Assembly (NCBI GenBank): GCA_017462015.1
Contig: JAFTRX010000083.1
Location: forward strand, 1-54,962
Length of the DNA stretch: 54,962 bases
Direction: 5' to 3'
DNA from: Lentisphaeria bacterium
Lineage (GTDB): Bacteria > Verrucomicrobiota > Lentisphaeria > Victivallales > Victivallaceae
The notes under the pieces are model-generated. The model did not search any database. It was not told the origin of the DNA and was given only the letters and a program-made list of their open reading frames with translations. Position numbers and translations under genes: made by a program. The number at the start of each line of letters is the position of its first letter. The stretch's first letter is position 1. Positions 23,819 through 39,389 of the stretch are shown here, one piece after another.

Positions 23819-24121
23819 ATGACCGATATTCTTTTAATTACCCCCGCTGATGTGATGCAGAGAACGGCACAACGTGCCAAAGCATTGCGTTTAGAGCAGA
23901 ATATCACCCAGCAGGAGCTTGCCGACAAGGTCGGTATTGCTGTCGGTACAGTCAAGCGTTTTGAGAAGACCGGCGAAATCCAGTTCAATCATCTGCTCCG
24001 CATTGCTCTGGTACTTGGCAAACTCGACGACTTCAGCAATATCTTTGCAGTCGATGATCTCCCGGTTTCGCTCTATGATCTCAAAGCTGAAAAGGTTCGG
24101 CAGAGAGCGAGGAAAAAATGA
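23819..24121 (+). CDS. hipB: HipB-like XRE-family antitoxin
   Basis: A 100-aa DNA-binding protein with an XRE helix-turn-helix (about residues 20-75; LRLEQNITQQELADKVGIAV then GTVKRFE). In HipBA-type modules this protein neutralises the HipA kinase and represses its own operon. The stop overlaps the hipA ATG by 4 nt (ATGA), the usual coupling. AAGGG precedes the ATG. Assignment as antitoxin rests on domain type and gene order. Confidence 0.88.
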   Translation: MTDILLITPADVMQRTAQRAKALRLEQNITQQELADKVGIAVGTVKRFEKTGEIQFNHLLRIALVLGKLDDFSNIFAVDDLPVSLYDLKAEKVRQRARKK

Positions 24122-25269
24122 AACTCAAAGTCTTTTTGAATATGTACGGCATCCGTCAGGAAGTCGGGCTGCTGCTTCAAGACAAGCAACGTATCTTCTT
24201 TGAATATGCTCCAGGCTTTTTGAAGAGCGGTATAGAGTTGTCTCCTTTCAAGCTGCCTTTGAAAGCCGGAGTGTTTGAAGAAAAATCATATCTCTTTGAT
24301 GGGCTTTTCGGTCTTTTCAACGACAGTCTGCCTGATGGGTGGGGGTGTCTGCTCCTTGATCGCAAACTCCGTAAGCTGGGCAAGTCTTATGCAGAAATAA
24401 CTCCCATTGATCGACTTTCACTCATCGGTGTTGATCCCATGGGAGCTTTGGAATACGAACCGGCAGCAGAGGATTCTGACTTTTATGGAGATATTGAACT
24501 TGATTCACTCTCAGGGGAGGTTGACCGGATTATTGACGGCGAAGAAAGCACCGTTCTTGATGAACTGCTGAAACTCAATGGTTCCTCCGGTGGAGCCCGT
24601 CCCAAGATAGTTGCCTGTGTTTCAAGCGACCGCAAACAGATCATTCATGGCGGAAAGAGTGTCCCTGACGGTTTTACTCCGTGGATCATCAAGTTTTCAG
24701 AAAAGCACGATCCGCAGACTTCCGGAGAGTTGGAATACCGCTACTCTCTGGCGGCGAAGGCTGCTGGAATCACCATGCCGGAAACGCATTTGTTTCCCTT
24801 GAAAGACGGACGGGGGTGTTTTGGAGTTCAGAGATTTGATCGTACTCCTGAAGGCAAAGTCCATACCCATACCGCCTGTGGATTGCTTCATGCGTCGCAT
24901 CGCTTTGCTTCACTTGATTATGAAAATCTGTTGAAGCTCACCTGGATTCTGACCAGAAACCATGCCGATGTGGTGGAAATGGTACGCCGGATGATTTTCA
25001 ATGTCAAAAGCTGCAATAAGGATGATCACAGCAAGAACTTTTCATTCCTGCTGAACTCCCGGTACCAGTGGCAGCTTGCTCCTGCCTACGACCTCACACC
25101 AAGTGCCGGTATCAACGGCGAACAAACCTGTATGGTCAACGGCAAGGGATGCAATATCACCGATGCTGACTTGATCAAAACTGCGGGAAGTGCCAGCGTT
25201 TCAGAAGCAGAAACCAAAGCCCTGATCGAACAGGTAAATGCCGCTTTACAACAATACAATATTTGCTGA
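24118..25269 (+). CDS. hipA: HipA-like serine/threonine kinase toxin
   Basis: A 383-aa HipA-family kinase. The N-terminal subdomain carries PLKAGVF and the FNDSLPDGWG block (about 67-76). The ATP-binding SSGGARPK lies at 156-163. The catalytic loop NKDDHSKNFSF (300-310) and the metal-binding PAYDLTPS (322-329) are intact, so it should be active. Family members phosphorylate targets such as glutamyl-tRNA synthetase and induce dormancy; the target here is unknown. It is somewhat shorter than E. coli HipA (440 aa). A fragment of an AraC-type gene follows within a few bases of the stop, suggesting insertion beside or into an older gene. Confidence 0.88.
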   Translation: MKLKVFLNMYGIRQEVGLLLQDKQRIFFEYAPGFLKSGIELSPFKLPLKAGVFEEKSYLFDGLFGLFNDSLPDGWGCLLLDRKLRKLGKSYAEITPIDRLSLIGVDPMGALEYEPAAEDSDFYGDIELDSLSGEVDRIIDGEESTVLDELLKLNGSSGGARPKIVACVSSDRKQIIHGGKSVPDGFTPWIIKFSEKHDPQTSGELEYRYSLAAKAAGITMPETHLFPLKDGRGCFGVQRFDRTPEGKVHTHTACGLLHASHRFASLDYENLLKLTWILTRNHADVVEMVRRMIFNVKSCNKDDHSKNFSFLLNSRYQWQLAPAYDLTPSAGINGEQTCMVNGKGCNITDADLIKTAGSASVSEAETKALIEQVNAALQQYNIC

Positions 25270-25279
25270 AATTTTATTT

Positions 25280-25444
25280 AATGAGTTTGGAGCAGCGATC
25301 GCTTTACTTAAATACAGTGATTGGAGCATAACAGAAATTGCCGGACTGTGCGGATTTTCTATTGCGGGTCATTTTGCAACATTATTCAAACACAAATATT
25401 CGCACACGCCCAGCGATATAAGAAAAAATTCTGCCATGAAATAA
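25280..25444 (+). pseudogene. AraC-family C-terminal fragment
   Basis: About 54 residues match the end of an AraC/XylS DNA-binding domain: AIALLKYSDWSITEIAGLCG, then FSIAGHFATLFKHKY and the HTPSDIRKN end. The first helix-turn-helix and the ligand-binding domain are absent, and there is no start of its own. It lies 10 bp after hipA and appears to be the remnant of a regulator cut off by the acquisition of hipBA. Confidence 0.75.
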
Positions 25445-25461
25445 ATTACTATTCCAAGGCG

Positions 25462-26181
25462 TTATAACTGCAAACCGCCAGCTATCGGGATTTCCGCACC
25501 GGTGATATATCCGGCATCGTCGGAAGCGAGAAAAGCGATAAGTTTGCCGCACTCCTCTGCCGTACCGAAACGGTGCATCGGAACCTTTTCTTTAAGCATC
25601 GCGGCAAATCCTTTATCGCTCAACGCCTCCGCGTTGCGGTCGGTCTCGATCACCCCCGGCAATATGGAGTTGACCGTGATATTGAAAGGAGCACCTTCCA
25701 ATGCCGCAGTGCGCGCGAGATTTTGAAACGCCGCCTTGGTTGCACCGTAAACAGCCAACCGTCCGGCGGGTTTTACGCCGTTGACACTGCTGACAAAAAT
25801 CACTCTGCCCCACTGTTTTTTCTGCATTTCAGGGAACAGTTTATTCAACAACAAACAAGTGCTTTCCACATTGGTATCAAACATTTTCCGGTACTCTTCT
25901 GCCGTAAAATTGCCGATGCCGGTGTAGCTCTGATACGAGGCATTGAAAACCAATATATCCGGAACCTGATTTCTGGCGATAAGTTCATCAGCAAAATCTG
26001 CCGTTGCCTCCGCACTGCTCAAATCCACCCCGTAAAATGGAGAAGCTCCGGCGGCGGCAAGCAGCTTGTCACTCACCTTGGAAGCGTGATAAATCACCTG
26101 ACATCCGGCATTTTCCAGTTCTTTAGCCGCGGCAAGACCGATTCCCCGGCTGGAACCGGTAACCAATGCAATTTTTTTCAT
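25462..26181 (-). CDS. SDR-family oxidoreductase
   Basis: A 239-aa short-chain dehydrogenase. The cofactor motif TGSSRGIG lies at 8-15, NAS at about 80-82, and the catalytic Ser131/132, Tyr145 and Lys149 are present. The C terminus ends in ITGAEIPIAGG as in FabG-like classical SDRs. The start at 26181 overlaps the lactonase stop (ATGA) and follows AGGAG. As the last gene of the IclR operon it is a candidate sugar or sugar-acid dehydrogenase. A 3-oxoacyl reductase role is unlikely given the context. Confidence 0.88.
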   Translation of the reverse strand: MKKIALVTGSSRGIGLAAAKELENAGCQVIYHASKVSDKLLAAAGASPFYGVDLSSAEATADFADELIARNQVPDILVFNASYQSYTGIGNFTAEEYRKMFDTNVESTCLLLNKLFPEMQKKQWGRVIFVSSVNGVKPAGRLAVYGATKAAFQNLARTAALEGAPFNITVNSILPGVIETDRNAEALSDKGFAAMLKEKVPMHRFGTAEECGKLIAFLASDDAGYITGAEIPIAGGLQL

Positions 26182-26975
26182 AAGTAAAACTCCTTTCCTG
26201 CTTCGGGAAGCAAAGTTTTCATGCCGAGTTTTTCGCAATACTCAATCGTGACCGGTTCAGCCGGATCGTTCCCGGCAAACATCTTTATATGACACGGAAT
26301 AAGCAGTTCAGCTCCGCAAGACTGCGCCAGACAAACGGCTTCATCAATATCCATATTTCCGGCAATGCCCATTGCATGACGCACCTCATCGCGTCCATTT
26401 ACCGGCAGACACATGATCAATTTTGCACCCGACGGAAGATTTCGCAAAATTGCGGCATCCTGTCCCGGATATGGTACTGTATCTCCTCCGAAAAACACCG
26501 AAATATTTTCTTTACGGAAGTTGACAAGGAAACTCACGGATTTGTATTCACCATTTTCATCGGTTTCCAGAGTTTCATGCGCCGCCGGAATGGTATGCAG
26601 TTCAATTCCCGCAGTTAATTCAACCATTTTTCCCGTTGAGACAAATTCAAACTTTTCAGCTTTTTCAGACAAATACTGTTCGATCTTTCCCCGGCAGTCT
26701 CCCGGACAGAAAAAGCGGCAATCCGGATTATTCGTCATTACAGGAATGATCGTTTCCGGGTCAAAGTGATCAGCGTGGGAATGGGTGATAAGGTACAAAT
26801 CCACTTTCAAATCAGCCGGATCCCGGACAATGGGAGTTCCGCGCGTATGGTCAAGTTTGCTCTTGAGTTTCGCGCACGAATTCGAAAGATAGGGGTCGGC
26901 AAGTAAAACCGTATCACCTGTCCTGACCAGAAATCCGCTCTGTCCGAGCCAGCAGAGTTTTATCTCATTTCCCAT
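26178..26975 (-). CDS. UlaG-like metallo-beta-lactamase-fold hydrolase (putative lactonase)
   Basis: A 265-aa cytoplasmic metallo-beta-lactamase-fold protein. Metal ligands are visible as THSHADH (His65, His67, Asp69, His70), His133, Asp165 (GGDT) and His229 (PCHIKMF). The PVNGRD segment (191-196) is typical of the UlaG subfamily, whose founding member opens L-ascorbate-6-phosphate lactone. No ascorbate PTS or other ula genes are present, so it more likely opens a sugar lactone made by the adjacent dehydrogenase (inference). Its ATG overlaps the aldolase stop by one base (TGATG). Confidence 0.88.
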   Translation of the reverse strand: MGNEIKLCWLGQSGFLVRTGDTVLLADPYLSNSCAKLKSKLDHTRGTPIVRDPADLKVDLYLITHSHADHFDPETIIPVMTNNPDCRFFCPGDCRGKIEQYLSEKAEKFEFVSTGKMVELTAGIELHTIPAAHETLETDENGEYKSVSFLVNFRKENISVFFGGDTVPYPGQDAAILRNLPSGAKLIMCLPVNGRDEVRHAMGIAGNMDIDEAVCLAQSCGAELLIPCHIKMFAGNDPAEPVTIEYCEKLGMKTLLPEAGKEFYL

Positions 26976-27730
26976 CAGAAATATCCGCCTTTGTCAATGA
27001 TTTCACTGATGGTGTCGCCCTGCCGCACCCAGGAGAAAATATCAACTTCATTGCGTTCAATTCCTTCGGCACGCAGCAGCACATCGTAGGCGATTTCGCG
27101 CGGGATACACAAGACTCCATCTATGTCGCCGAAAATAATATCGCCGGGACGGACGGTCACTTTGCCGATCTTTATCGGAACCTGATAATGGGTGATCATA
27201 CAGCGTCCGAGAGAACCGTTGGAAGTACGGTACTTGTAGAAGATCGGAAAATCCTGTTCCAGAATCTGCTTGGTATCGCGGATACCTCCGGCGATGACTG
27301 CGCCCCGGATACCTTTGGTGATGGCGGTCGCTGTCATCACGCCACCCCACAAACTCGCTTCGACATCATTGGAGGTATCCCAGACCACCACACCTTCAGG
27401 TTTAAAATCATCAAGCATTTGGGCGCGGAAGGTCATTTCGCCTTCGATCATCACATTGGGAGCGCTTTTAACGGTAAAGGCTTCACCGCAAACGGTCATT
27501 TCATCGCGCAGCGGCATAATGTCGCTGGGGAGATTCTGGTCAAGCAGAGTATATTCGCGCATGACATCGTTGATACATCCGGTGTAGAGTTTTTCGTAAC
27601 GCTCGCAGAGTTCCTTTATGGGGATGGGGATTTCGCAATTGGGTATCCGCTGACGGACAGCGATAAGTTTGTCTAATTTCATCAAACCGGCTTCTTTTGC
27701 CTGTTCTCTCATATCTTTCAGTGACGGCAT
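26975..27730 (-). CDS. RraA-family aldolase/decarboxylase-like protein
   Basis: A 251-aa member of the RraA/HMG-CHA-aldolase family, often misannotated as demethylmenaquinone methyltransferase. It has WGGVMTATAITKGIRGAVIA leading to GGIRD (148-152) with the Arg151-Asp152 pair of catalytic members, and PGDIIFGDIDGVLCIP (about 199-214). A roughly 60-residue N-terminal extension makes it longer than RraA itself (about 160 aa). Family aldolases split 4-hydroxy-2-oxo acids into pyruvate plus an aldehyde or keto acid. Here it is a candidate 2-keto-3-deoxy-sugar-acid aldolase. AAGGAAAA precedes the ATG. Confidence 0.85.
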   Translation of the reverse strand: MPSLKDMREQAKEAGLMKLDKLIAVRQRIPNCEIPIPIKELCERYEKLYTGCINDVMREYTLLDQNLPSDIMPLRDEMTVCGEAFTVKSAPNVMIEGEMTFRAQMLDDFKPEGVVVWDTSNDVEASLWGGVMTATAITKGIRGAVIAGGIRDTKQILEQDFPIFYKYRTSNGSLGRCMITHYQVPIKIGKVTVRPGDIIFGDIDGVLCIPREIAYDVLLRAEGIERNEVDIFSWVRQGDTISEIIDKGGYF

Positions 27731-27749
27731 AGTATATTTTCCTTATGTT

Positions 27750-29063
27750 TTATGACCATTGACGGTCGTTTGACCACTCTTTATCCCAGCGAGAGGTATC
27801 GCCCCACGCTTCGGGGAATTCGGGGTGGAGTTTCTCTTTTATCAAATCTTCGTTGAGAGCTTCGATACCAAGTCCGGGACGGTTGGGAACTTCAATAAAT
27901 CCGCCGTCGTACTTCAATGCAGGAATTACGAGGTCGCCCCACCACGGTACATCGACACTGTGAAGTTCCAAACTCATAAAGTTACGCGTGGCAGCGGCAA
28001 CGTGGACAGCGGCAAGGCAGGCAATGGGACTTTCTGCCATGTGGATATTCATCTGAGCGCCGTATTCTTCAGCCATGTCGCCGATCTTTTTGGTTTCCAG
28101 AATACCACCGGCAGTGAGGATATCCGGGTGGATAACGGCAAGTGCACCGGATTCGAGCAGCGGTTTGAAGCCCTCTTTCAAATAGATATCTTCGCCCGTT
28201 CCCAACGGCACGGTAGTCGCATTATGAAGCTGAACCCACTGTTGAGTCATCTGCCACGGGACCGCATCTTCCATCCAGGCGAGGTTGTATTTTTCCAGAC
28301 GGCGGGCAAGTTTGATGCAGTCTTCCAAAGGAATGTGTCCGAGGTGGTCAATGGCGATGGGAACTTCGTAACCGACTTCAGCGCGGACATCTGCCATATA
28401 CTGTTCCAGATAATCGAGTCCGACTTCCGTAAGGTGGATGCCGGTAAAGGGGTGCGCGGTATTAAAAAGATCATACGCCGCACCGCGCATGGCGGATGGA
28501 TTGATGGAACCATGCGGAGTTTTGAATACCTGCTTGTACTCTTTCATTGTTTCGATGAAGCCCAGCGGCGCAGAGAGCGTGCCTTTGACATTCATCAGAA
28601 GTTCGATGCCCAAATCCATTTTGAGGAAAGTGAATCCCTGCGCCATACGCGCTTTGAGCGCTTTTCCCATGTCGCTGCCGTGACCTTCACTGTCGGTATC
28701 GCAATAGCAGCGGATCTTATCGCGGAACTTGCCGCCGAGAAGCTGCCAGACGGGAACACCCCACGCTTTACCGGCAATATCCCAGCAGGCAACTTCAATG
28801 GCGCACACGCCACCTGCCTGACGGGAATCTCCGCCAAACTGTTTGATGCGGCGGAAAACTTTTTCTACGTTACAGGGATTTTCACCGATGATGCGGCTTT
28901 TGAGCATAGCGGCATAGGTGGCACTGGAAGCATCACGCACTTCTCCGTAACCGACGATGCCCTGATTGGTGTAAAGCTTCACCAGTGTACACCGTTTGGG
29001 CGCGCCGTCGATCTCGGCGAAGCGCATATCGGTGATCTTCAAAGTTGATGGATCGATTTTCAC
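27750..29063 (-). CDS. Enolase-superfamily acid-sugar dehydratase-like protein
   Basis: A 437-aa mandelate racemase/muconate-lactonizing-type protein. Metal ligands appear as Asp239 (AIDH), Glu265 (MEDAVPW) and Glu291 (GEDIY). The barrel also shows Lys148-x-Asp150, HPD (312-314), and NIH (His341) as the likely general base. The length and C-terminal YDGGFIEVPNRPGLGIE stretch fit acid-sugar dehydratases better than muconate cycloisomerases. The start is GTG with an AAGGA site. Position between GH10 and the RraA-type aldolase suggests it dehydrates an aldonate or uronate to a 2-keto-3-deoxy acid. Galactarolactone cycloisomerase activity is an alternative. Confidence 0.88.
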   Translation of the reverse strand: MKIDPSTLKITDMRFAEIDGAPKRCTLVKLYTNQGIVGYGEVRDASSATYAAMLKSRIIGENPCNVEKVFRRIKQFGGDSRQAGGVCAIEVACWDIAGKAWGVPVWQLLGGKFRDKIRCYCDTDSEGHGSDMGKALKARMAQGFTFLKMDLGIELLMNVKGTLSAPLGFIETMKEYKQVFKTPHGSINPSAMRGAAYDLFNTAHPFTGIHLTEVGLDYLEQYMADVRAEVGYEVPIAIDHLGHIPLEDCIKLARRLEKYNLAWMEDAVPWQMTQQWVQLHNATTVPLGTGEDIYLKEGFKPLLESGALAVIHPDILTAGGILETKKIGDMAEEYGAQMNIHMAESPIACLAAVHVAAATRNFMSLELHSVDVPWWGDLVIPALKYDGGFIEVPNRPGLGIEALNEDLIKEKLHPEFPEAWGDTSRWDKEWSNDRQWS

Positions 29064-29076
29064 AGTTGTAAATTCC

Positions 29077-30405
29077 TTATTTCAGAGTTATGACAAATTC
29101 GTTGAACGAGTGTTTGCTTAAATCGACTGTCCGGCGGAATGTTCCATTATCGGTGATGATTTCCGCTTCATATTCTCCATAGAAGCCGTGGAAACGGTTA
29201 TCGCCTCCGGCACGGTATTCAACGGAGGTTTCGGTGTGCCATTCTTCATTGAGCAGACGGCGCAGTACTTTGCACGCTTTTTTGTCGGTAAAGTCGTAGT
29301 TGACCAGTCCGGCGCGCAGGCGGTTTTCGCCTTCTTCGCTGCCCAATGGCGCGTAGGCGGCAGTACCGTCAACCAGATTCCACCATACTATCGCTTCGGT
29401 GGCAGGGTGACTGAACCACAAGCGGTAGAGTCGTTCCAATGCCAGCGCCTGAAATTCATCACCATCTCCCAAGGTGCGGCAGGAAAGCAGACTAACTTCC
29501 GACATATTCAGCGGGATGCCGAGTTTGGCGTATTGGTCCAGAGCGCGCCAGACACAGCGGGGAGAGAGCGGGCGGTTGACCTGCATTACGCTGTCACTTT
29601 TCATATTGTTGAACATGTGATACTGCAACCCCAGACCATCGACCTGACAACCGTGTTCCATAAGAGTTTTCACCAGCAAATAGACCGGAGTATAATCTCC
29701 CTGATAATTCCACCAGGAAATATTGTCGTTATAAATTTTTTGATTGCACGGGAAATATTTTTCTGCAAGTTTGAAGCAGCGTTCAACATGGTCGTCCGGC
29801 AGACTTTCGGTCAAACGCACACCGGGGTGCCGGGTCTGCGCCTCATTGACAACATCCCAGACCGGAATAATATCGGCATAACGCTCTGAAATCTCTTTAA
29901 AACGCTTGTCCAGAGCCTTCATCAATTCACGGCTGTTTTTCGGAGCCCATTCCGGGGTAAAATTGTGCCAGCATAAAGGATGCCCTTTGGGGGTGATATT
30001 ATATTTGCGGCAGAATTCCAGAACCCGGTCGGGCGCAGGGCGACGGTAGATAAAAGGAGAATTCACGCCGAAACGCGGCTTTCCCGGCTCCGGTTCAAGG
30101 TCGCTCCAGTAAAAGGGAACGACTGCCAGATTGAAGAGAGACGCGAAAGTTTCTTCGTATTGCTGATTCTGTTCCGTTTCGGGGAAAGAGTCGATCATAA
30201 AGGCGTTGCATCCGAACTTGTATTCATGACTCTTTTGCTTCAATTTGATCGTTGCACCGGGGATGTCATTACCGTCTTTATCCCGCAGAGTAAAGCGGCC
30301 GAATCCCTTACGGTACATTTCAGTACCATATTTGATTTTGAAATCGAGTTCGGAATCTTCTTTAAGCAGAGAATTCAAATACTTTTCAGCTTCTTCTGTA
30401 AACAT
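29077..30405 (-). CDS. GH10-family endo-1,4-beta-xylanase-like enzyme (intracellular)
   Basis: A 442-aa GH10 protein. The acid/base Glu188 lies in WDVVNEAQ and the nucleophile Glu303 in LNMSEVSL. GHPLCWHNFTPEW (141-153) is the conserved -1 subsite block. A short N-terminal beta domain (about 30-65) precedes the (beta/alpha)8 barrel, and a small C-terminal domain follows residue about 395. There is no signal peptide, so it should act in the cytoplasm on imported oligosaccharides. It lies 12 bp after the IclR-type gene and 13 bp before the dehydratase-like gene. It may not be a xylanase in the strict sense. Confidence 0.92.
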   Translation of the reverse strand: MFTEEAEKYLNSLLKEDSELDFKIKYGTEMYRKGFGRFTLRDKDGNDIPGATIKLKQKSHEYKFGCNAFMIDSFPETEQNQQYEETFASLFNLAVVPFYWSDLEPEPGKPRFGVNSPFIYRRPAPDRVLEFCRKYNITPKGHPLCWHNFTPEWAPKNSRELMKALDKRFKEISERYADIIPVWDVVNEAQTRHPGVRLTESLPDDHVERCFKLAEKYFPCNQKIYNDNISWWNYQGDYTPVYLLVKTLMEHGCQVDGLGLQYHMFNNMKSDSVMQVNRPLSPRCVWRALDQYAKLGIPLNMSEVSLLSCRTLGDGDEFQALALERLYRLWFSHPATEAIVWWNLVDGTAAYAPLGSEEGENRLRAGLVNYDFTDKKACKVLRRLLNEEWHTETSVEYRAGGDNRFHGFYGEYEAEIITDNGTFRRTVDLSKHSFNEFVITLK

Positions 30406-30417
30406 AGTGTTTACCTT

Positions 30418-31155
30418 TCAATTAAAATTTTCACACTTGGCTGCCGCATGGCGCATCGCCCGGGACAGCTGCGATAATTTGTCATTGGAGAAGTCTTCCA
30501 CATTCCCCAGCACGGTCAGAGCCGCAACGACCCGCCGTTCCCGGTCATGGAGCGGAATGGAACCGGCGGCGATATTCCAGCGGTTCTTTTTGAGATTGAA
30601 AACGATTCCGTTCTTTCGAACCTCCTGAACCGCATTCAGCAGTTGCTCCGGGAAAGATTTTTCCGGAATATCCACCGTACAGCGGGAAAGAAGTTCAAGT
30701 ATGGTATCATTATCTTCCCGATAGAGCAACGCAGCTCCAACGGAACCTTCCACCACCGGAAAACTCGCGCCCACCCGGCCGGTCAATGAAAACGGCCCCG
30801 GTAATTCCGAACGCATGATGGTTGTCTGTTCTTCGCCCCGACGCAGAGAGATTTTGCAGGCAACATTGAGCTTTCGCGTTATATCATCCATCAAACCTTG
30901 CGCATGTTCAAATATCTGCATACTGCGGTAACAGTGATGCACCAGCGGCAGAATACCGTGATCCAGTTCATAACGCCCGGCATCATCTTTACGCACCCAG
31001 CGGTGTTTCAACAATGTCTGCAATATCCGGTAGGTACTGCTCATGGAAATTTGCAGCTTCCTGCAAATCTCACTTTGCGTAACTCCACTGTCGGTACTGC
31101 TTATATACTCCAGCACAGCGATAGTGTGTTTTACGGCAGGGATCGTATTGTTCAT
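30418..31155 (-). CDS. IclR-family transcriptional regulator
   Basis: A 245-aa regulator: N-terminal winged helix (residues about 1-70; VLEYISSTDSGVTQSEICRK then SSTYRILQTLL) and a C-terminal IclR effector-binding domain with GSVGAALLYRE and the AAGSIPLHDRERRVVAALTV region. The frame is open to 31245, but the ATG at 31155 is chosen because the promoter at 31195-31223 starts transcription near 31188. It heads the catabolic operon, so it probably controls its own synthesis and that of the enzymes in response to a pathway acid or keto acid (inference). Confidence 0.9.
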   Translation of the reverse strand: MNNTIPAVKHTIAVLEYISSTDSGVTQSEICRKLQISMSSTYRILQTLLKHRWVRKDDAGRYELDHGILPLVHHCYRSMQIFEHAQGLMDDITRKLNVACKISLRRGEEQTTIMRSELPGPFSLTGRVGASFPVVEGSVGAALLYREDNDTILELLSRCTVDIPEKSFPEQLLNAVQEVRKNGIVFNLKKNRWNIAAGSIPLHDRERRVVAALTVLGNVEDFSNDKLSQLSRAMRHAAAKCENFN

Positions 31156-31185
31156 ATTTGAACACCCTATGTTATTTTTTGAACA
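31153..31185 (-). promoter_or_regulatory. Possible IclR operator in the operon leader
   Basis: On the minus strand the leader holds two copies of TGTTCAAA, and the one next to the start codon extends to GTTCA-AATA-TGAAC, a perfect 5-bp inverted repeat spanning the ATG. IclR-type proteins bind such short repeats near their own promoters. No binding data are implied. Confidence 0.4.
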
Positions 31186-31194
31186 TTTGATATT

Positions 31195-31223
31195 ACTATA
31201 TCCTTGGCAAAAGATTTTGTCAA
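31195..31223 (-). promoter_or_regulatory. Strong sigma70-type promoter of the IclR operon
   Basis: On the minus strand TTGACA (31223-31218), 17 bp, then TATAGT (31200-31195): a near-consensus promoter for the six-gene operon. Confidence 0.8.
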
Positions 31224-31395
31224 TAATATTTCGCAAATATTTCATAAATTTTTACGTTACGCGATCAGGGCTTCTTATTGGCAACAAACTGGATCAGTTT
31301 CACGTTCATATGGTGTAGTTTTTTGTGGCACCCTTGCACATCTTTTTCAGGCTTTTATCACTTAAGGGGCGGTTGCAACATCTGTTTTCATCCCC

Positions 31396-31737
31396 GTGTG
31401 CTGGATCACAGTAATCATCATCGGATTTGTGGTCTATTCGCTGTACACTCCACGGATGACCGTATTTGATTTTCAGGAGAAAAAGTTTTTTTGCTGTAAA
31501 CATTTCAGCCCGGAAAAAGCAGAAAAAATGAAAGCACTTTCTTTTGACAAAGTGGATCACTTGTGCTGTAATACACTCTTTAATGGAAACAAAGGGCAAT
31601 TCATCGGCGTGTTTGCCGTGACCCACGATGGATATAAGTTACCTCTGTTTAAGGTTACAAGGAAACGCCTTGATCTGCTCTTTGAACTGCTGCCGGAACT
31701 TGCAGAAAAAATGGGGCATCTTCCCATCACTTACTGA
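31396..31737 (+). CDS. Small membrane-anchored hypothetical protein, possibly 5'-truncated
   Basis: The 113-residue frame begins at a GTG without a clear ribosome-binding site. It has one hydrophobic segment (ITVIIIGFVVYSLY), then a soluble part with VFDFQEKKFFCC and a FKVTRKRLDLLFELL C-terminal helix, which could be a small PH-like fold. Hydrophobic residues continue upstream of the GTG (AVATSVFIPV), so the true start may be lost, or the gene may be a 3' fragment of a longer membrane protein. I do not recognise the family. An alternative start is the ATG near 31456, which would remove the membrane helix. Confidence 0.5.
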   Translation: MCWITVIIIGFVVYSLYTPRMTVFDFQEKKFFCCKHFSPEKAEKMKALSFDKVDHLCCNTLFNGNKGQFIGVFAVTHDGYKLPLFKVTRKRLDLLFELLPELAEKMGHLPITY

Positions 31738-31802
31738 AAGTTCGTCCATTGGCAGTTGCTATTTGCCTGCCGGAAACAGACGAAGACGGCGGAAGTTTAA
31801 TT

Positions 31803-34133
31803 TCAGCAAAGTGTGACTGGTCCGTATAAGCCGGATTCTAAAGAATCTGATTCAAACGCCCGGTAGATCGGCTCATAAATTTGAAGCGGAGACCATTTTT
31901 TTTGCCAATCTTCCAATACATGTTCCGGCTCAATCGCGTTGGAAAGTGTATTGGAAACAATGATTTCCAGATGATTTGTTCCCGTTTTCAGCGCATCTTT
32001 CACATCAAAACGGAATGGCCCCCACAGTAATTTGCCGAGTTTCTGACCATTCAGGATGACTTGAGCTGAATAGTTGACTTTTCCCAGATCGATACCGTGC
32101 CATTTTTGGGGATCTTTACATTCAAAATCTATGGAATAAACTGCATCTCCGCTGTATTCACTGTCGAGAACCTGCCGCCAATCACCAAGAGTGACCAACT
32201 GGAATTTCTGCGGCAAGGGGGTGACCGCATAACTGTTTTCTTCTACACTGTGACGGCAAAGCGGTGAAATCTGCCACGTTCCGGAAATCTCCTGTTGGAG
32301 TTTGCTCTCTTTGCGATACGGTGCATCGTGTTCGCCAATAAGAAACAATTCTGAACTTCCGGGGGAAAAGTGCCACTTCCAACTGCCGTTACGGCTGCGT
32401 ATTTTTTCGATTTTCCCGCTTGCCGCATCACAACGGATGACGGGAAGTTTTTCCGGGATGGTCAGAGTGACATCCAAATCACTCATTGACTCATTGACGA
32501 CAAAGTAGAGATAACCGTTTTTAAGTTTGCGTTTCTGAATACGCAGCATTTCTGTTTCCGGGAAGCACTGCATCATCTGCGGCAAAGTATATACTTCTTC
32601 TTCAGAAATAATATTGACTCCGGATTTTTTGAGAAGTTCCAGTTTTTGCCGGGATTCTTCCGGAAGCATTGCCATCATCGGAATGATAATGGTATGGTAT
32701 CGCATTGCTCCATACTGCAAAGATTTTCCGTTCACTTTGCCGTCTTGAATAATATCATCATCAATAAAATCGAAATCGATCCGGCGTTCCATCAGTTTGC
32801 GGCAAAGCGTTTCCTGAACACCTGCCGCATTGGCGGCAGTTCTCTGATTCATCCACAGTGACCGGACATCAAAATAAACGGCGGTCGATATTACCGGTTT
32901 TCCCTGAGAAAGCATCCATGCCGTCCGGGCGGTGTAACGATGGAAGTGTTCCATATATTTCCACAAAGGATTGTGACATCCGAAACAACGGTCGGTGATT
33001 TTTTTGCCTTGCGGATCGTATTTGAAAGAACTTACCACAAACAAATTTACTCCGCGTACCAGCAGATAATCTGTTATCCAGCGGATGACTGCCGGAGTAA
33101 GTCCGCTGCCGTAAATGGCAAATATTTCGCCCAGAGCATATTTTGAACCGTTCTGATGAGCGGCGCTTGAAGCGAATTTGGGGAACACCCTGCTTCTGAC
33201 ACCGGGATAGAGTTGCCGCCATATAACATCCACCCCCGGCAGATCCAGCGCCCGGAGTGAACGCAAAATATGACCGTATCCCTGAAAAAGAGTCCGTTCC
33301 GGCTCATCTTCTCCGCCGAAGTGACCGCCTGATTTCAATTTGTGCCGGTGGCACCAGTCGCGTATCGGCAGCAGAAAGCGTTCAACAAAAAGTTGGGAAA
33401 CAACATCATAATAGTCGATCAGGTAATATCCGGTTTTGGAGGGAAACGCTGCGAGTTTCTGGTTGACGATATCTCCGAGATGCGGCATGATGTCGTAACC
33501 TTTGCGTTTTTTGAATTCTTCCGGCAGGTCATCGACCCACGGCAGTTTATCTCCGCCGTTGGTAAATGCCGGTTCGTCAGTAAAGGTAAATTTACAGGAT
33601 TTGCCGAAATGTCTGGATATATGGCGGGCGTAACCTTCATGGGTGAGTTCGATGAATTTTCTGGTGGCATCCGGATTCAGTACATTGGGGGAGGGGGCAG
33701 TTTTTGCCGGATCGTATTCAACATTTTTTATAACATATCCGCCATTGCCGTCAGGAGCAACATATTTTCGGGAAAACCGTTCCGGATCGCTCGCCCAGAC
33801 CCGTCCGCAGGCACTGCCGGATGGCCAGCCGCCTTCGTCATACAAATAACAGTTCATCCCCAGTTTTTCTGCAGTCTCATACATTTTGGCTGCGGCACGG
33901 AAATAATCTTCAGAAAGGTATTCCGGAGCAAGAGCACTGGGAGTGGTTCGGGGACGGAACTCCGGCGGCATCGGATGCGGGCAGGCATTTTTTGCTCCTG
34001 CATCATTCATCATGGTCATCGGTTCAACGATACTTTTATCATCAAGTTTCTCATCCAGCATCCAGAAATAACCGGGATGAACAAGCGCAGGCGGAGTCTT
34101 GAATAAAATCGGATCAATAATATATTTTTTCAT
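31803..34133 (-). CDS. GH106-like glycosyl hydrolase (alpha-L-rhamnosidase type)
   Basis: A 776-aa protein. Residues about 1-420 form a barrel-like region with YDEGGWPSG (98-106) and FTDEPAF (184-190), motifs of the GH106/alpha-L-rhamnosidase-like group; acidic residues there are candidate catalysts. A middle alpha/beta region follows (about 430-560). The C-terminal jelly-roll-like domain (about 620-776) has DLGKVNYSAQVILNGQKLGK and LWGPFRFDV. No signal peptide is seen, implying cytoplasmic action on imported oligosaccharides. The family is broad, so rhamnose specificity is only a guess. It is transcribed from its own promoter and convergent with the small gene at 31396. Confidence 0.8.
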   Translation of the reverse strand: MKKYIIDPILFKTPPALVHPGYFWMLDEKLDDKSIVEPMTMMNDAGAKNACPHPMPPEFRPRTTPSALAPEYLSEDYFRAAAKMYETAEKLGMNCYLYDEGGWPSGSACGRVWASDPERFSRKYVAPDGNGGYVIKNVEYDPAKTAPSPNVLNPDATRKFIELTHEGYARHISRHFGKSCKFTFTDEPAFTNGGDKLPWVDDLPEEFKKRKGYDIMPHLGDIVNQKLAAFPSKTGYYLIDYYDVVSQLFVERFLLPIRDWCHRHKLKSGGHFGGEDEPERTLFQGYGHILRSLRALDLPGVDVIWRQLYPGVRSRVFPKFASSAAHQNGSKYALGEIFAIYGSGLTPAVIRWITDYLLVRGVNLFVVSSFKYDPQGKKITDRCFGCHNPLWKYMEHFHRYTARTAWMLSQGKPVISTAVYFDVRSLWMNQRTAANAAGVQETLCRKLMERRIDFDFIDDDIIQDGKVNGKSLQYGAMRYHTIIIPMMAMLPEESRQKLELLKKSGVNIISEEEVYTLPQMMQCFPETEMLRIQKRKLKNGYLYFVVNESMSDLDVTLTIPEKLPVIRCDAASGKIEKIRSRNGSWKWHFSPGSSELFLIGEHDAPYRKESKLQQEISGTWQISPLCRHSVEENSYAVTPLPQKFQLVTLGDWRQVLDSEYSGDAVYSIDFECKDPQKWHGIDLGKVNYSAQVILNGQKLGKLLWGPFRFDVKDALKTGTNHLEIIVSNTLSNAIEPEHVLEDWQKKWSPLQIYEPIYRAFESDSLESGLYGPVTLC

Positions 34134-34209
34134 TTTTCAACTCTTGTAAAAGTCCAAAATTTTGTAAAACCTATATGCTGTGTGCTGCACAAGAAATGTT
34201 GCGCTGTAA

Positions 34210-34238
34210 AATGTACTGCAACAGAGGTGTTTTGTCAA
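34210..34238 (-). promoter_or_regulatory. Promoter of the GH106-like gene
   Basis: On the minus strand TTGACA (34238-34233), 17 bp, TACATT (34215-34210). The leader of about 70 nt contains the recurring TTTTACAAAATTTTGGAC motif also present at 17106-17124. Confidence 0.75.
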
Positions 34239-34304
34239 GCGGGAAAAAAGCCGCCGGGGCTTTCTGACGTACCGGTTTGATTTTTATTCCGGCACATTTT
34301 TTAC

Positions 34305-34333
34305 TTGAAATTTCCGTTAACATGATGTATATT
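34305..34333 (+). promoter_or_regulatory. Promoter of the SASA esterase gene
   Basis: TTGAAA (34305-34310), 17 bp, TATATT (34328-34333), 31 bp before the ATG. Confidence 0.7.
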
Positions 34334-34364
34334 GCCGAAACAGTTTTTTACAACGGAGTTTGAT

Positions 34365-36344
34365 ATGATGAAAAAATATTTTCTTACAGTTGCGGCAATG
34401 TGTTCCGGAGTGATGGCATTGGCGGCGGTCACGGTTCCTGCGATTTTTTCAGATGGAGCGGTGTTGGCAAGGCGGGAAAATGTCCCGGTGTTCGGCTGGG
34501 GCGCTCCCGGAGAAAAGGTTACGGTAAAATTTGGTTCGCAAACCCGGCAGGCGGTTACTGGAACCAATGGGAAATGGGAAGTTTTTCTGAATTTGAAAAA
34601 CGTGTCCACAACTCCGCAGGAGCTGCGTATCAATGATCTGGTCATCAAAGATGTGGTCGCCGGTGAAGTTTTTCTCGCTTCCGGTCAGAGCAATATGGCA
34701 TTCAAGGTCCCCCGGGCGATCGGCGGGGCTGAAGAGTGCAAACTTCCGCAAAACCGCAACATCCGCTTTTTCAAAGTCGAGACTGCTTATGCGGACGAAC
34801 CGGTATCTGAACTGCGCGGAAAATGGATGTATGCTGAAAGCGAAACACTTCCGCTTTTTACTGCGGTTGGCTACTTTTTTGCTAAAAAGCTCCAACAAAC
34901 ATTGAATGTTCCTGTTGCCATTGTTGATTCCAGTTTGTCCGGAACTCCGCTTGAAGGTTGGATGAGCAAAGAGAGCGTTGCCCCCTTTCCCGAAACTGTA
35001 AACCTCGGTAAACGCCGCCTTGCGAATTTGAAATCCTATCCCGCCCGCCTGAAAAAATTTCTCAATGCGACCGCCGTCTGGGAGAAAAAGTATCATCGCA
35101 CCGATATCCCGGTCAAACTTCCGTCCGTTAAAGCCCAGTGGAAACCGCACGCCGGTAACGTTTCCGGCGGAGGCGTTTGCTGGCTGCGGAACCGTATCGT
35201 TCTTTCTGCCAGGGATGCTCAGAATGGATTCAGAATTTCCCTCGGGCGCATCTACGCGCCGATCCAAATTTTTATTGACGGCAAAAAAGTTTTGGAGGGA
35301 AATGTGAAAAAAGCCTGGAGCAACTCTCAATTCTGGATCGATATCCGGCCGGGAGAATTTACCGCAGGCACGCACGAAGTGTTGGTTCGTTACTGGATTT
35401 CTCATGACCGGATGCACATGCCGCAGCCGTTCCGCTTCGGCAGTTACAGCATCGACGGCAAAGGTTGGGAAATCTATTGGGAGAAACGGTTTCCCAAATG
35501 CGCCGGAGAAATGTTGAAAACCCGTCCTCAGCCGCTGGGCAACGCTCCGATGGCTGAACGGCAGTGGTATTGCCTGTTCAACGCGATGATCCATCCCCTT
35601 ATCCCGTACCGTTTCTCCGGGGTGATCTGGTATCAGGGCGAGGGCAACGCCTCCCGATACGCCAATTACGGCAACGTTTTTTCTGCGATGATTACCGATT
35701 GGCGGAAGAAATTCCGTAATGAAAGTATGCCGTTCTACTTCTGCCAGTTGCCCTCATTTATGCTTCCGGCGGCTGATCCTGCGGATTGCGGCAACTGGGC
35801 ATACATGCGTAAAGAGCAAACGGAAGCCTTGAAACTTCCCCACACCGGCATGGCGGTTTTGACCGATGTCGGAGAGTGCCGTGACATCCATCCGCTGAAT
35901 AAAAAAACTCCCGGCGAACGGTTGGCACTGTTGGCGCTGGCGCAGATTTACGGCAAAAAAATTCCGTTTAAAAGTCCGGTCGCTGTCAAGGCTGTCCGGA
36001 ACGGAAGTTCTGTCAAGGTCGCATTTTCCCACACGGATGGCGGGCTGACGGCGGCGGCGTTCCCGGAGAAGCTCCCGAAGAAAAAGAGCAACAACACCAC
36101 GCTCCCGCTGATTCGCCGTTCACCCAATGCGATGCTGGAAGGTTTTGCGTTGTGCGGAACCGACGGCAAATGGTTCTGGGCGGATAAAGCGCAAATTTCC
36201 GGAAACATGGTCGAAGTTTCCTGCAAACAGGTTCCGTCACCGGTAAAGATCAGATACAATTGGACCAGTTTCCCGCTGGGAAATCTTTTCAGTAAAGCCG
36301 GTCTTCCTGCTGCTCCGTTTGAGCTGCCCGCTACCGCAAATTGA
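34365..36344 (+). CDS. Secreted SASA-type carbohydrate esterase (sialate O-acetylesterase-like)
   Basis: A 659-aa exported esterase with a signal peptide (FLTVAAMCSGVMALA). The catalytic Ser lies in SGQSNM (106-111), the second block in WYQGEGNA and the Asp-His part in GECRDIHP: the SASA/SGNH arrangement. An inserted beta domain (about 255-365) interrupts the catalytic halves, as in sialate O-acetylesterases. It probably removes acetyl groups from glycans outside the cytoplasm, and sialic acid need not be the substrate. GGAG precedes the ATG at 34365. It is divergent from the GH106-like gene and convergent with GH92. Confidence 0.88.
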   Translation: MMKKYFLTVAAMCSGVMALAAVTVPAIFSDGAVLARRENVPVFGWGAPGEKVTVKFGSQTRQAVTGTNGKWEVFLNLKNVSTTPQELRINDLVIKDVVAGEVFLASGQSNMAFKVPRAIGGAEECKLPQNRNIRFFKVETAYADEPVSELRGKWMYAESETLPLFTAVGYFFAKKLQQTLNVPVAIVDSSLSGTPLEGWMSKESVAPFPETVNLGKRRLANLKSYPARLKKFLNATAVWEKKYHRTDIPVKLPSVKAQWKPHAGNVSGGGVCWLRNRIVLSARDAQNGFRISLGRIYAPIQIFIDGKKVLEGNVKKAWSNSQFWIDIRPGEFTAGTHEVLVRYWISHDRMHMPQPFRFGSYSIDGKGWEIYWEKRFPKCAGEMLKTRPQPLGNAPMAERQWYCLFNAMIHPLIPYRFSGVIWYQGEGNASRYANYGNVFSAMITDWRKKFRNESMPFYFCQLPSFMLPAADPADCGNWAYMRKEQTEALKLPHTGMAVLTDVGECRDIHPLNKKTPGERLALLALAQIYGKKIPFKSPVAVKAVRNGSSVKVAFSHTDGGLTAAAFPEKLPKKKSNNTTLPLIRRSPNAMLEGFALCGTDGKWFWADKAQISGNMVEVSCKQVPSPVKIRYNWTSFPLGNLFSKAGLPAAPFELPATAN

Positions 36345-36349
36345 ACAAC

Positions 36350-36399
36350 AAACAAAAAATCGAAGGGCTGTTGCCGACTTTAAAGTTTGGCAACAGCCC
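36350..36399 (-). terminator. Terminator of the GH92 gene
   Basis: A perfect 11-bp stem, GGGCTGTTGCC/GGCAACAGCCC (36365-36375 with 36389-36399), is followed on the minus strand by TTCGATTTTTT. It lies about 50 bp after the stop at 36450. Confidence 0.85.
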
Positions 36400-36449
36400 C
36401 GTGTCATTAATACCAGTCGCAGTCAGTGCGCATCTCTGCGCGACTCAAC

Positions 36450-38480
36450 TTACAGCCAATCCGGAATCGGAGAAGCTCCGGTTGATTTGTCCGTCAGATA
36501 GAACTTCAATTTGCCGCCCTTTTCCAGTTCGGGAAGAGGAAGCCACGGTTCATTGAATCTCTTGCCGTTGAACTCATAACCTGCCGGATAGATCGAAGCT
36601 GAACTTTCTCTTTCAACTTCGATTTCCAGTGTGCCGTTGGGCAGATCAATCTCTGCGCGGTTCACCGCCGGTGCGCCCAGCAGATAGTAATTGGTTCCGG
36701 TATAAGGATAGATGCCAAGCATGCTCCACACATACCAGGAACTCAATCCGCCGGAATCGTTGTTTCCGGGACAGCCGCCGTCACCTTCGCAGAAGCGGCA
36801 TCGCTTCACCAGGTCACAAACTTCCGCCAGACGGTCACGCCGTCCCGCCCACAAGTAGCAGTACGGAGTTTCCATATCGGACTCATTGTTCATGCCTTCA
36901 AAGCGGTTGTTTATCGTAAGCCGGTCACCCGGAGCTGTTTCCGGCGGACAATCTGCGCCGAAGAACTTGTCCAGAAGCTGAGTGAACTTCTCCACTCCAC
37001 CGGCAAGTTCGATACGCTCTTTCATCTGCGTATGCGGACGGAAAGAGTAGTTCCAGCATGTGCCTTCATAGTAGACCGCATCGGCGACCATCAATCCGGT
37101 TGCCGGATCATACGCTTCTTTCCACAGCAAACTTTCTTTGCGCAGTTCGGCGGCATAGCTTTCATCACCGCATCGTCCGGCGATTTCAGCGGCGGCTCTC
37201 AAAGCTCCGGCAAGGTCAAGTTTGTGAGTGGGGGATCTGCCGCTGATATCAGCGTGAGCGAACTCCGTAGTCACTGCCTTTTTGAACTGCGCATAATCGC
37301 TGATATAACCGCGGTTGAAACCATCACACAAGGTGTAAATGACCAGAGAAGTCGCCTGATTGTCGTCATGGTGATAATCATCGGTCATCATATAGCCGTT
37401 GGGGAAGAAGCCGAACTTTTCAATGGTTTTCATCATCGAATCGACGATGCGTTTACCCAAATCCGGGCAGATCGCCAGCACCAGCGGCAGCTGAGTGCGG
37501 TAAACATCCCACATCGTCTGGAAATCGGTAAACTCATCACCGGCATCGACCGGCTTCAACAGTGAGTGGTAAAGCGTACTGTAAAAAATGCGGGTATCGG
37601 ATTCCTGTGGGAACTCCACCCGGATGCGGTTGAGCCGTGCTGTCCACTCTGCTTCAGCGGAACTTCTGGCATTGTCAAAACCGGTTTTTACCGCGGCGTT
37701 CAAACGTTCATCCGCTTCGGCAACGCTGCTCAGCGAAAAGGCGATGACCGACTCGCTGTATCCGCCGTTGACCGTTGCGATAACTTTACTGCCTTCGATG
37801 GCGGCAGTTTTGATATCACCGTCAAACTTCACGGCAAAGAATATTTTTACGCCGTTGCCCAGGACAAAACCGTGCCAGACGTTATCTCCGGCCGGGGAGA
37901 GCCCGTATTCGGCAATATGCTCTTTTTTCCGTTCCCCGATAATATCTCTGCCCAAGCCGAGCAGCTGAACATCCAGAGTAAGGGTCCCGGCTTTTCCATC
38001 CTGATAGCGGCAGCGGTGGTAAGCGGCAAATTTTCCGGCAGTCAACTCAAAGTCGACGCCGTAGTTGCTCAAGGTTCCGGAATAATATCCCGGATGAGCC
38101 GCTTCGTTATCCAGATCGGAACGCCGGGAGGTGTCAGCGCCGCACACTGCCGGAGTTATCAGGAAGTAGTTGTAAAAGTAACCGAGATAACCGACACCGC
38201 TGGTGTGGAAGTGGGAAAATCCATAGGCATACTTGCGATCCAGCGCCACCGGAGCCGGACCGCAGCTGGAGACTCCGTTGATGCCGTATCCGCAGGAGTA
38301 TGCCGCAGAATAGGGGACGACCGATACCCAGCCGCACGGAACCAATGCTCCGGGATGGGTGTTGCCGGTCTGGGCTTTCAACCAGTTCCAGTTACGAGCC
38401 ATACCTTCTGCGGCGGGGGATTGAGTTCCGGCATTGCCCCAGAAGGGATTGGCATAATTCAAAACAGCTTTATTCATCAA
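36450..38480 (-). CDS. GH92-family alpha-mannosidase-like enzyme (intracellular)
   Basis: A 676-aa GH92 protein. Residues about 1-240 are the N-terminal beta-sandwich, and the rest the (alpha/alpha)6 barrel with TMWDVYRTQLPL. NNESDMETPY (531-540) holds the expected acid Glu533. The family usually has GND/ED-x-G at the base site; here it reads GNNDSGG (572-578), so one of the two acidic positions is Asn. No signal peptide is present, unlike most secreted GH92 mannosidases. AAAGGA precedes the ATG. Calcium-dependent exo-alpha-mannosidase activity is the family norm. Confidence 0.9.
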   Translation of the reverse strand: MMNKAVLNYANPFWGNAGTQSPAAEGMARNWNWLKAQTGNTHPGALVPCGWVSVVPYSAAYSCGYGINGVSSCGPAPVALDRKYAYGFSHFHTSGVGYLGYFYNYFLITPAVCGADTSRRSDLDNEAAHPGYYSGTLSNYGVDFELTAGKFAAYHRCRYQDGKAGTLTLDVQLLGLGRDIIGERKKEHIAEYGLSPAGDNVWHGFVLGNGVKIFFAVKFDGDIKTAAIEGSKVIATVNGGYSESVIAFSLSSVAEADERLNAAVKTGFDNARSSAEAEWTARLNRIRVEFPQESDTRIFYSTLYHSLLKPVDAGDEFTDFQTMWDVYRTQLPLVLAICPDLGKRIVDSMMKTIEKFGFFPNGYMMTDDYHHDDNQATSLVIYTLCDGFNRGYISDYAQFKKAVTTEFAHADISGRSPTHKLDLAGALRAAAEIAGRCGDESYAAELRKESLLWKEAYDPATGLMVADAVYYEGTCWNYSFRPHTQMKERIELAGGVEKFTQLLDKFFGADCPPETAPGDRLTINNRFEGMNNESDMETPYCYLWAGRRDRLAEVCDLVKRCRFCEGDGGCPGNNDSGGLSSWYVWSMLGIYPYTGTNYYLLGAPAVNRAEIDLPNGTLEIEVERESSASIYPAGYEFNGKRFNEPWLPLPELEKGGKLKFYLTDKSTGASPIPDWL

Positions 38481-38494
38481 AAAGATCCTTTATG

Positions 38495-38530
38495 TAAAAA
38501 CCTGCTCTCCGTAACTGGAGGCAGGTTTGA
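38495..38530 (-). terminator. Terminator of the coiled-coil protein gene
   Basis: On the minus strand AAACCTGCCTCC...GGAGAGCAGGTTTTT forms a stem of about 11 bp with one bulge, ending in a T-run, 30 bp after the stop at 38561. Confidence 0.8.
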
Positions 38531-38560
38531 GCAGATACTGCAAATAAGACAACAAATATA

Positions 38561-39367: not shown

Positions 39368-39389
39368 GTTTTAAATTCCTTTTATTTTT

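Follow-up and report, generated by a model that had tools for sequence, protein, structure and literature searches.

The Dahms and non-phosphorylative Entner-Doudoroff pathways comprise a dehydrogenase, an optional lactonase, a dehydratase and an aldolase. Contig JAFTRX010000083.1 of Lentisphaeria bacterium (assembly GCA_017462015.1; 54,962 nucleotides, analysed at full length and hereafter called the window) carries an operon that, like these pathways, has candidate genes for those steps and no kinase. The operon encodes an IclR-family regulator, a glycoside hydrolase of family 10 (GH10), a mandelate racemase-type enolase-superfamily protein that is probably an aldonate dehydratase (hereafter ENO), an RraA-like protein, a UlaG-like hydrolase and a short-chain dehydrogenase/reductase (SDR) (Table 1). 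Unlike the known pathways, the window has an RraA-fold protein in place of the DHDPS- or HpcH-type aldolase; a UlaG-like or β-propeller lactonase and a GH10 gene within the operon are further differences. From the sequences, we consider there to be about an even chance that the operon encodes a non-phosphorylative, aldose-oxidising route. We also propose, tentatively and at somewhat short of even probability, that one highly conserved RraA clade is a novel aldolase for both 2-keto-3-deoxygluconate (KDG) and its pentose analogue. This clade would be the shared end of an aldose-oxidising arm, composed of the SDR, a new clade of enolase-superfamily dehydratases and alternative lactonases, and of a glucuronate arm composed of UxaC, UxuB and UxuA, with a patchy distribution in gut plant-wall-degrading Verrucomicrobiota.

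Three reports describe close counterparts. In the xylonate operons of E. coli and Salmonella, as in the window, an IclR-type regulator (XynR or YjhI) is placed over a sugar-acid dehydratase and an aldolase. Unlike the window, these operons use a dihydroxy-acid-dehydratase-type dehydratase, a DHDPS-type aldolase and a major facilitator superfamily (MFS) transporter, and the accessible text names no glycoside hydrolase (PMC12445098). Haloarchaeal mannan clusters resemble the window in holding IclR, an RraA gene and glycoside hydrolases, together with the mannonate dehydratase ManD. They have mannanases instead of GH10, and the authors send KDG through a kinase and 2-keto-3-deoxy-6-phosphogluconate (KDPG) aldolase (PMC10963439). 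FlDet, a 237-residue RraA-family dehydratase/decarboxylase of alginate catabolism in Flavobacterium sp. UMI-01, has a 2-keto-3-deoxy sugar acid as its substrate and serves the breakdown of a polysaccharide, as the window's RraA would; unlike the window's operon, its route includes no enolase-superfamily enzyme named in the accessible text (PMC8563752). Since FlDet is in print, an RraA-family enzyme of sugar-acid catabolism is already known, and the RraA family in such pathways is thus not wholly new, which qualifies the original prediction, made without database searches, that the enzyme combination matches no familiar described pathway. No report of an RraA role on KDG or xylonate was found in the literature searched, which mostly lay outside subscription journals.

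Gene company of RraA in related genomes

We scanned named genome contigs for RraA and found 142 relatives, of which the best 80 (87–99% identity) were analysed together with as much as 10 kb of flanking sequence at either end. With the window, these form a set of 81 loci; more distant RraA contexts lie outside it. The loci are from metagenome-assembled Lentisphaeria and Kiritimatiellae, many of ruminant-gut origin to judge by their titles, and the closest named RraA relatives are in Lentisphaerae/Lentisphaeria metagenome-assembled genomes, several of them from the ruminant gut according to their titles. Genes were called by our own heuristic weighted by codon use and were clustered, the same-strand run around RraA was counted, and the SDR and ENO sub-types were told apart by BLAST. 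Since 52 of the 81 runs touch a locus end, the run counts are lower bounds.

The runs contain the core SDR in 51 cases (one only 28% identical), ENO in 47 and GH10 in 41. MFS genes follow with 13, UxuA and GH13 with 10 each, a D-mannonate-oxidoreductase-type SDR with 7, UxaC with 4, and β-propeller lactonase and GH113 with 3 each; the IclR gene is within 21 runs. Among the 47 ENO-containing runs, 40 have the SDR and 35 have GH10. Sorted by context, the runs comprise 44 with ENO, 3 with ENO and UxuA, 8 of the ENO-less UXU type, 1 with another ENO type, 10 with the SDR only and 15 with none of these. As a distance control, gene densities up to 5 kb from RraA were set against those at 6–10.5 kb in the same loci. 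Per 100 kb, the near and far densities were 6.5 and 0.8 for ENO, 7.4 and 0.5 for the SDR, 8.4 and 0.3 for GH10, 1.4 and 0 for UxuA, 0.9 and 0.3 for the oxidoreductase, 0.6 and 0.3 for UxaC, and 0.4 and 1.5 for XylR. Since ENO, the SDR and GH10 are enriched near RraA, the operon is not a chance arrangement.

In 100 relative genomes, RraA was detected in 32 at E ≤ 1e-40 and in 27 at E ≤ 1e-100, and ENO in 26 at E ≤ 1e-150. Under the tighter RraA threshold, 25 genomes have both, 1 has ENO alone, 2 have RraA alone and 72 have neither (Fisher 3.7e-20, uncorrected for kinship, from a table read by hand). Across the phylum, ENO was present in 62 of the 387 genomes sampled. The locus counts and the genome co-occurrence together indicate that the unit is real and patchily spread, and on sequence grounds they support the SDR, ENO, RraA and GH10 as a recurrent unit.

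Two further kinds of RraA locus were observed. At L069:6300-11254, after a first ENO-SDR-MFS set, RraA is followed by another SDR, an MFS gene, a second ENO resembling gluconate/galactonate dehydratases and a β-propeller lactonase, which looks like a second complete cassette. In L042, L043, L044, L048 and L050, an RraA 94% identical to that of the window has as neighbours the small conserved gene c11, which by eye looks HIT-like, and other genes, but the runs hold no sugar-acid partner.

Enzyme families and candidate catalytic residues

Pfam bore out the six family assignments of the original prediction, with the UlaG-like protein placed in the metallo-β-lactamase fold. The RraA protein matches PF03737 (6e-33; 114.7 bits against a gathering score of 24.5). 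Like the 4-hydroxy-4-methyl-2-oxoglutarate/4-carboxy-4-hydroxy-2-oxoadipate (HMG/CHA) aldolase 3noj, it has the RraA fold and an aligned Arg-Asp pair. The GIRDT of the window aligns with the GVRDT of 3noj, placing R151-D152 on R123-D124, which we take to be catalytic, and R151-D152 is conserved in at least 97% of the 81 rows. The match between 3noj and the window's RraA is limited to 45 bits, and the HMG/CHA aldolase models scored below their cut-offs (NF006731, 81.4 against 179; TIGR02798, 75.8 against 304.5 bits). A further difference is that the substrate of HMG/CHA aldolase belongs to aromatic degradation. From the Arg-Asp pair and the gene contexts, we infer aldolase chemistry for RraA.

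The glucuronate route through UxaC, D-mannonate oxidoreductase and UxuA ends in KDG. In L051 and L067, RraA directly follows the genes for glucuronate isomerase, D-mannonate oxidoreductase and mannonate dehydratase. The RraA runs of L063, L068, L100, L104 and L109 hold two or three of UxaC, the oxidoreductase and UxuA, and that of L047 holds UxuA alone. All 7 loci with the D-mannonate-oxidoreductase-type SDR also have UxuA and/or UxaC, and UxuA occurs together with GH10 in 4 RraA loci, 3 of which have ENO as well. Against curated models, the L051 oxidoreductase (323.9 against 281) and the UxuA proteins of L047 and L081 were over the cut-off, and L067 UxaC (347.1 against 387), L063 UxuA (184.8 against 191) and L103 UxuA were under it.

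All 8 RraA proteins of the UXU context show 94.0–98.8% identity to an ENO-context RraA. In a quick, poorly resolved tree (11 of 74 inner branches starred), the UXU rows need 7 changes of context, at least 3 of which are forced by starred branches. Since RraA is near-identical in the two contexts, one substrate class is the simplest explanation, and the same protein in two gene contexts thus predicts its substrate class. At C4, KDG and 2-keto-3-deoxy-D-xylonate are configured alike, and a single aldolase could therefore stand at the end of arms for glucuronate, gluconate, mannonate and xylonate. Judging from sequence and gene context, RraA most likely acts on KDG-type acids, and ENO most likely makes KDG or its pentose analogue. 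A gene pair like that of the UXU loci has been reported before: UxuA of Paenibacillus sp. B2 adjoins an RraA-family aldolase gene, with such a gene nearby in Agrobacterium sp. B1 (PMC12673573).

ENO contains both the N- and C-terminal domains of its superfamily (PF02746, 8.5e-12; PF13378, 2.4e-44). The candidate metal ligands D239, E265 and E291, the dyad D314-H341 and K148-x-D150 are invariant in 22 sequences; these roles are presumed from alignments with 2qq6 and 3rcy. The best NCBIfam scores were to galactonate and gluconate/galactonate dehydratase models. The predicted structure (mean predicted local distance difference test score, pLDDT, 80.9) matches mandelate racemase-type structures, mostly of unknown function, and solved gluconate dehydratases are among the 50 structure matches listed. 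No characterised member of the ENO clade was found among the NCBIfam models, solved relatives and listed structure matches. Before conserved columns were counted, rows were removed by length (6 of 50 for ENO, 3 of 62 for GH10 and 10 of 63 for the SDR).

The SDR (PF13561, 2.7e-48) has S134, Y147 and K151 in 53 of 53 rows. Its clade carries NAS in place of NAG (S84, 50 of 53 rows) and, following the second strand, a His conserved in 50 of 53 rows at a position where SDRs usually carry an acidic or basic residue.

The UlaG-like protein matches PF12706 (2.5e-15) and PF13483 (7.1e-12), and its metal site (HxHxDH, H, D, H) is intact, with H65, H67, D69, H70, H133, D165 and H229 invariant in 8 sequences. 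In a Foldseek search with the predicted model (pLDDT 88.0), the second-ranked structure was UlaG itself (2wyl_A; TM-score 0.76, E 4.6e-16); Igni18 ranked first, and NAPE-PLD and other hydrolases matched too. Fold and metal site agree with the UlaG-fold lactonase of the original prediction, but the curated UlaG model gave 32.5 bits against a cut-off of 306 (NF008688). The UlaG-like gene occurs in only 5 of the 81 RraA runs, and a conserved five-gene order, which the original prediction named as something to check in relatives, was rejected on this count. In the 100 relative genomes, it was found in 8 (one at 34% identity), all 8 with ENO and 6 with the gene beside RraA (hypergeometric 8.4e-6, uncorrected for kinship). 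In L045, L069 and L083, a β-propeller lactonase-like gene adjoins the SDR or ENO in place of the UlaG-like gene; PF10282 was shown for L069, and 6-phosphogluconolactonase models were below cut-off in all three. The occurrence of two unrelated lactonase folds in the same setting speaks for a lactone intermediate. The lactonase is thus supported as an optional part of the unit, and elsewhere spontaneous lactone opening could bypass it.

GH10 matches PF00331 over residues 79–349 (3e-29), shows no obvious signal peptide by eye and has both catalytic glutamates, Glu188 and Glu303, conserved throughout the 59 aligned rows. Its closest solved relative is the β-xylanase 8b73 (3.9e-28), which also has the FYW motif of the window's protein and is AcXyn10A, named as an endo-xylanase (PMC12485897). 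Since GH10 adjoins the pathway genes and no match to xylose isomerase was found in the window's genome, xylose is the favoured sugar. Against xylose, typical GH10 xylanases have Asn and Lys in the minus subsites, and in our alignment Tyr99 takes the usual position of the subsite Lys in 58 of 59 rows; some RraA operons also hold GH13 and GH113 genes. In L060:10906-13228, moreover, RraA is followed by an aldo-keto-reductase-like gene and a putative nickel-dependent hexonate epimerase (NF052594, 622 over 500); L058 has a member of the same cluster. Pentoses and hexoses are both candidate substrates, as is an acid taken up from outside.

Proposed route and competing readings

We suggest the following reactions, substrates, aldolase mode and regulation for the aldose-oxidising route. 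GH10 would cut xylan-type oligosaccharides in the cytoplasm, the SDR would oxidise the freed aldose to a lactone, and the UlaG-like protein, where present, would open the lactone. Dehydration of the resulting aldonate by ENO would then give a 2-keto-3-deoxy acid configured at C4 as KDG is; gluconate or mannonate would yield KDG itself, and xylonate would yield 2-keto-3-deoxy-D-xylonate. RraA would cleave this acid to pyruvate and an aldehyde, serving as the terminal enzyme common to several sugar arms, including the glucuronate route of the relatives. The IclR protein may control the operon by way of a palindrome that lies at the start codon of the IclR gene itself. If true, this would be a kinase-free route from hemicellulose sugars to pyruvate. 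It would also account for a family whose members often bear the annotation RNase regulator or methyltransferase, and would add an enolase-superfamily clade for which no characterised member was found. Of the complete oxidative sugar pathway in the original prediction, the SDR, ENO, RraA and GH10 unit is supported, a conserved order that includes the UlaG-like gene is not, and "complete" and "sugar" are interpretive.

Several observations weigh against the aldose-oxidising route. ENO is under every NCBIfam cut-off (galactonate dehydratase, 203.9 against 311; others, 172.1 against 750 and 144.4 against 550 bits), and its invariant D239-H-L-G-H replaces the D-x-H of the aligned 2qq6, which may mark a different acid catalyst. 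For the SDR, none of the 25 NCBIfam matches listed is over its cut-off. The GH13 and GH113 genes mentioned above are a misfit for a xylose-only route. Avoidance of xylose isomerase was considered and rejected, as the absence of XylA from RraA genomes (0/7) was not significant (P 0.10). Likewise rejected was the replacement of a missing Eda by RraA; the window's genome has Eda, as do 26 of the 27 RraA genomes, and RraA is therefore no substitute for a missing KDPG aldolase. To see whether RraA might locally replace a KDG kinase in uronate clusters, 20 of the 93 listed D-mannonate-oxidoreductase places were fetched. By reference sequences, 13 lack UxuA and UxaC, and one of these 13 (L129) has Eda about 2.5 kb from the oxidoreductase. 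Of the 7 UxuA-like stretches (two UxuA matches being weak, at 26 and 35%), one (L143) adjoins RraA and six have no RraA, Eda or PfkB motif, as judged with genes read in 6 of the 20 stretches and disturbed by antisense open reading frames (ORFs). Since the six RraA-less stretches also lack Eda and PfkB, a missing kinase is uninformative.

RraA might follow the same oxidative front end but act as a dehydratase, or dehydratase/decarboxylase, giving a product of the 2-oxoglutarate-semialdehyde type and a Weimberg-type instead of a Dahms/Entner-Doudoroff-type ending. We regard this as unlikely. Its precedent is FlDet, which converts 2-keto-3-deoxy-D-glucarate to α-ketoglutaric semialdehyde and is not called an aldolase in the text consulted; of the keto acids assayed, however, that compound was its only substrate, and KDG was not used (PMC8563752). 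FlDet, inactive on KDG, also weighs against the aldose-oxidising route and qualifies the RraA-fold aldolase of the original prediction, of which the Arg-Asp pair is present and the chemistry of a family member differs. No aldehyde dehydrogenase signature, searched as a single narrow motif, was found in the 942 ORFs of the 81 loci, which speaks against a Weimberg-type ending, as does the fact that we know of no dehydratase/decarboxylase chemistry on KDG itself.

The route may instead start from a sugar acid or uronate that is taken up or made within the cell. In that case the SDR would act on a uronate, a keto acid or the aldehyde formed last, and aldose oxidation would not be the task of the operon. 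MFS genes in 13 of the 81 runs, in several of them lying between the SDR and RraA, agree with such a start, as do the presence of RraA in glucuronate operons and the L091 MFS protein, whose best scores, though far below cut-off, are to transporters of phosphoglycerate (95.9 bits) and galactonate (92.3 bits). IclR-type regulators control enterobacterial xylonate and rhamnonate operons (PMC12445098). On the other hand, the window's operon has no transporter gene, and the GH10 genes of 35 of the 47 ENO runs, like the two lactonase types, suggest that sugars and lactones are handled, so we assign an acid start a low probability. Finally, the genes may be co-regulated while their reactions are different or of some unknown kind, with RraA as, for example, an oxaloacetate decarboxylase or aromatic-pathway aldolase and the UlaG-like protein as another hydrolase. 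Other authors label the haloarchaeal mannan-cluster RraA as a putative oxaloacetate decarboxylase (PMC10963439) and assign the RraA-type aldolase beside UxuA in Paenibacillus sp. B2 to the breakdown of lignin fragments (PMC12673573). In addition, 15 of the 81 RraA runs are without ENO, UxuA and the core SDR, and 6 of these 15 are clear of locus ends. Both the lignin assignment and the partnerless runs also count against a KDG-type aldolase. The closest solved RraA relative, 5ir2, was deposited as 'Cellulase' with an RraA-like sequence; the name is probably a misassignment, and we guess that it reflects a neighbouring glycoside hydrolase gene on the screened clone. Different reactions are nevertheless quite improbable given the strong, distance-controlled association of RraA with sugar-acid enzymes of two unrelated dehydratase folds.

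Operon layout, promoter and neighbouring genes

The source genome is 2.8 Mb and 92.8% complete, and the window is its contig 31. As originally predicted, six genes lie on the minus strand at 25462-31155 with intergenic gaps of 12, 13, 19, -1 and -4 nt. Pfam revealed neither a transporter nor a β-xylosidase gene in the operon.

Table 1 Features of the operon and its upstream region in the window.
Feature	Position	Strand	Basis or remark
Promoter-like TTGACA-17-TATAGT	31195..31223	-	11/12 consensus matches
Putative IclR operator, palindrome TGTTCAAATATGAACA over the IclR start codon	31149..31164	.	only exact copy in the available genome assembly
IclR-family regulator, 245 aa	30418..31155	-	Pfam IclR_C and HTH_IclR
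GH10-family glycoside hydrolase, 442 aa	29077..30405	-	PF00331
ENO, enolase superfamily (mandelate racemase type), probable aldonate dehydratase, 437 aa, GTG start	27750..29063	-	PF13378, PF02746
RraA-like protein	26975..27730	-	PF03737
Metallo-β-lactamase-fold hydrolase, UlaG-like, possible lactonase, 265 aa	26178..26975	-	PF12706, PF13483
Classical SDR, probable NAD(P) dehydrogenase, 239 aa from ATG at 26181	25462..26181	-	PF13561

The near-consensus promoter of the original prediction was recovered as the top of 13 promoter-like matches in 25200-31850. Since shuffled sequence gives 7.9 ± 2.7 matches, the scan by itself is weak; boxes resembling this promoter were seen by eye upstream of several relatives. 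The IclR protein (PF01614, 1.9e-21; PF09339, 2.8e-12) may be autoregulated through the start-codon palindrome. The window was compared with 13 chosen relatives, namely L059 and 12 of the 22 further members of the IclR cluster. In 13 of these 14 IclR genes, TTCAAATATG lies over the start codon, and the fourteenth differs at one position. Since the palindrome partly overlaps codons, coding constraint contributes to its conservation.

Just past the operon, at 23819-25269, a gene for a 100-aa protein that is helix-turn-helix-like by eye overlaps a HipA-like kinase gene (PF07804, 1.8e-47; PF13657, 3.1e-15), an arrangement resembling HipBA toxin-antitoxin pairs. Upstream, 31806-40634 holds more carbohydrate genes of GH106-like, GH92 and GH109/Gfo-Idh-MocA types, with a sialate acetylesterase-like gene on the opposite strand.

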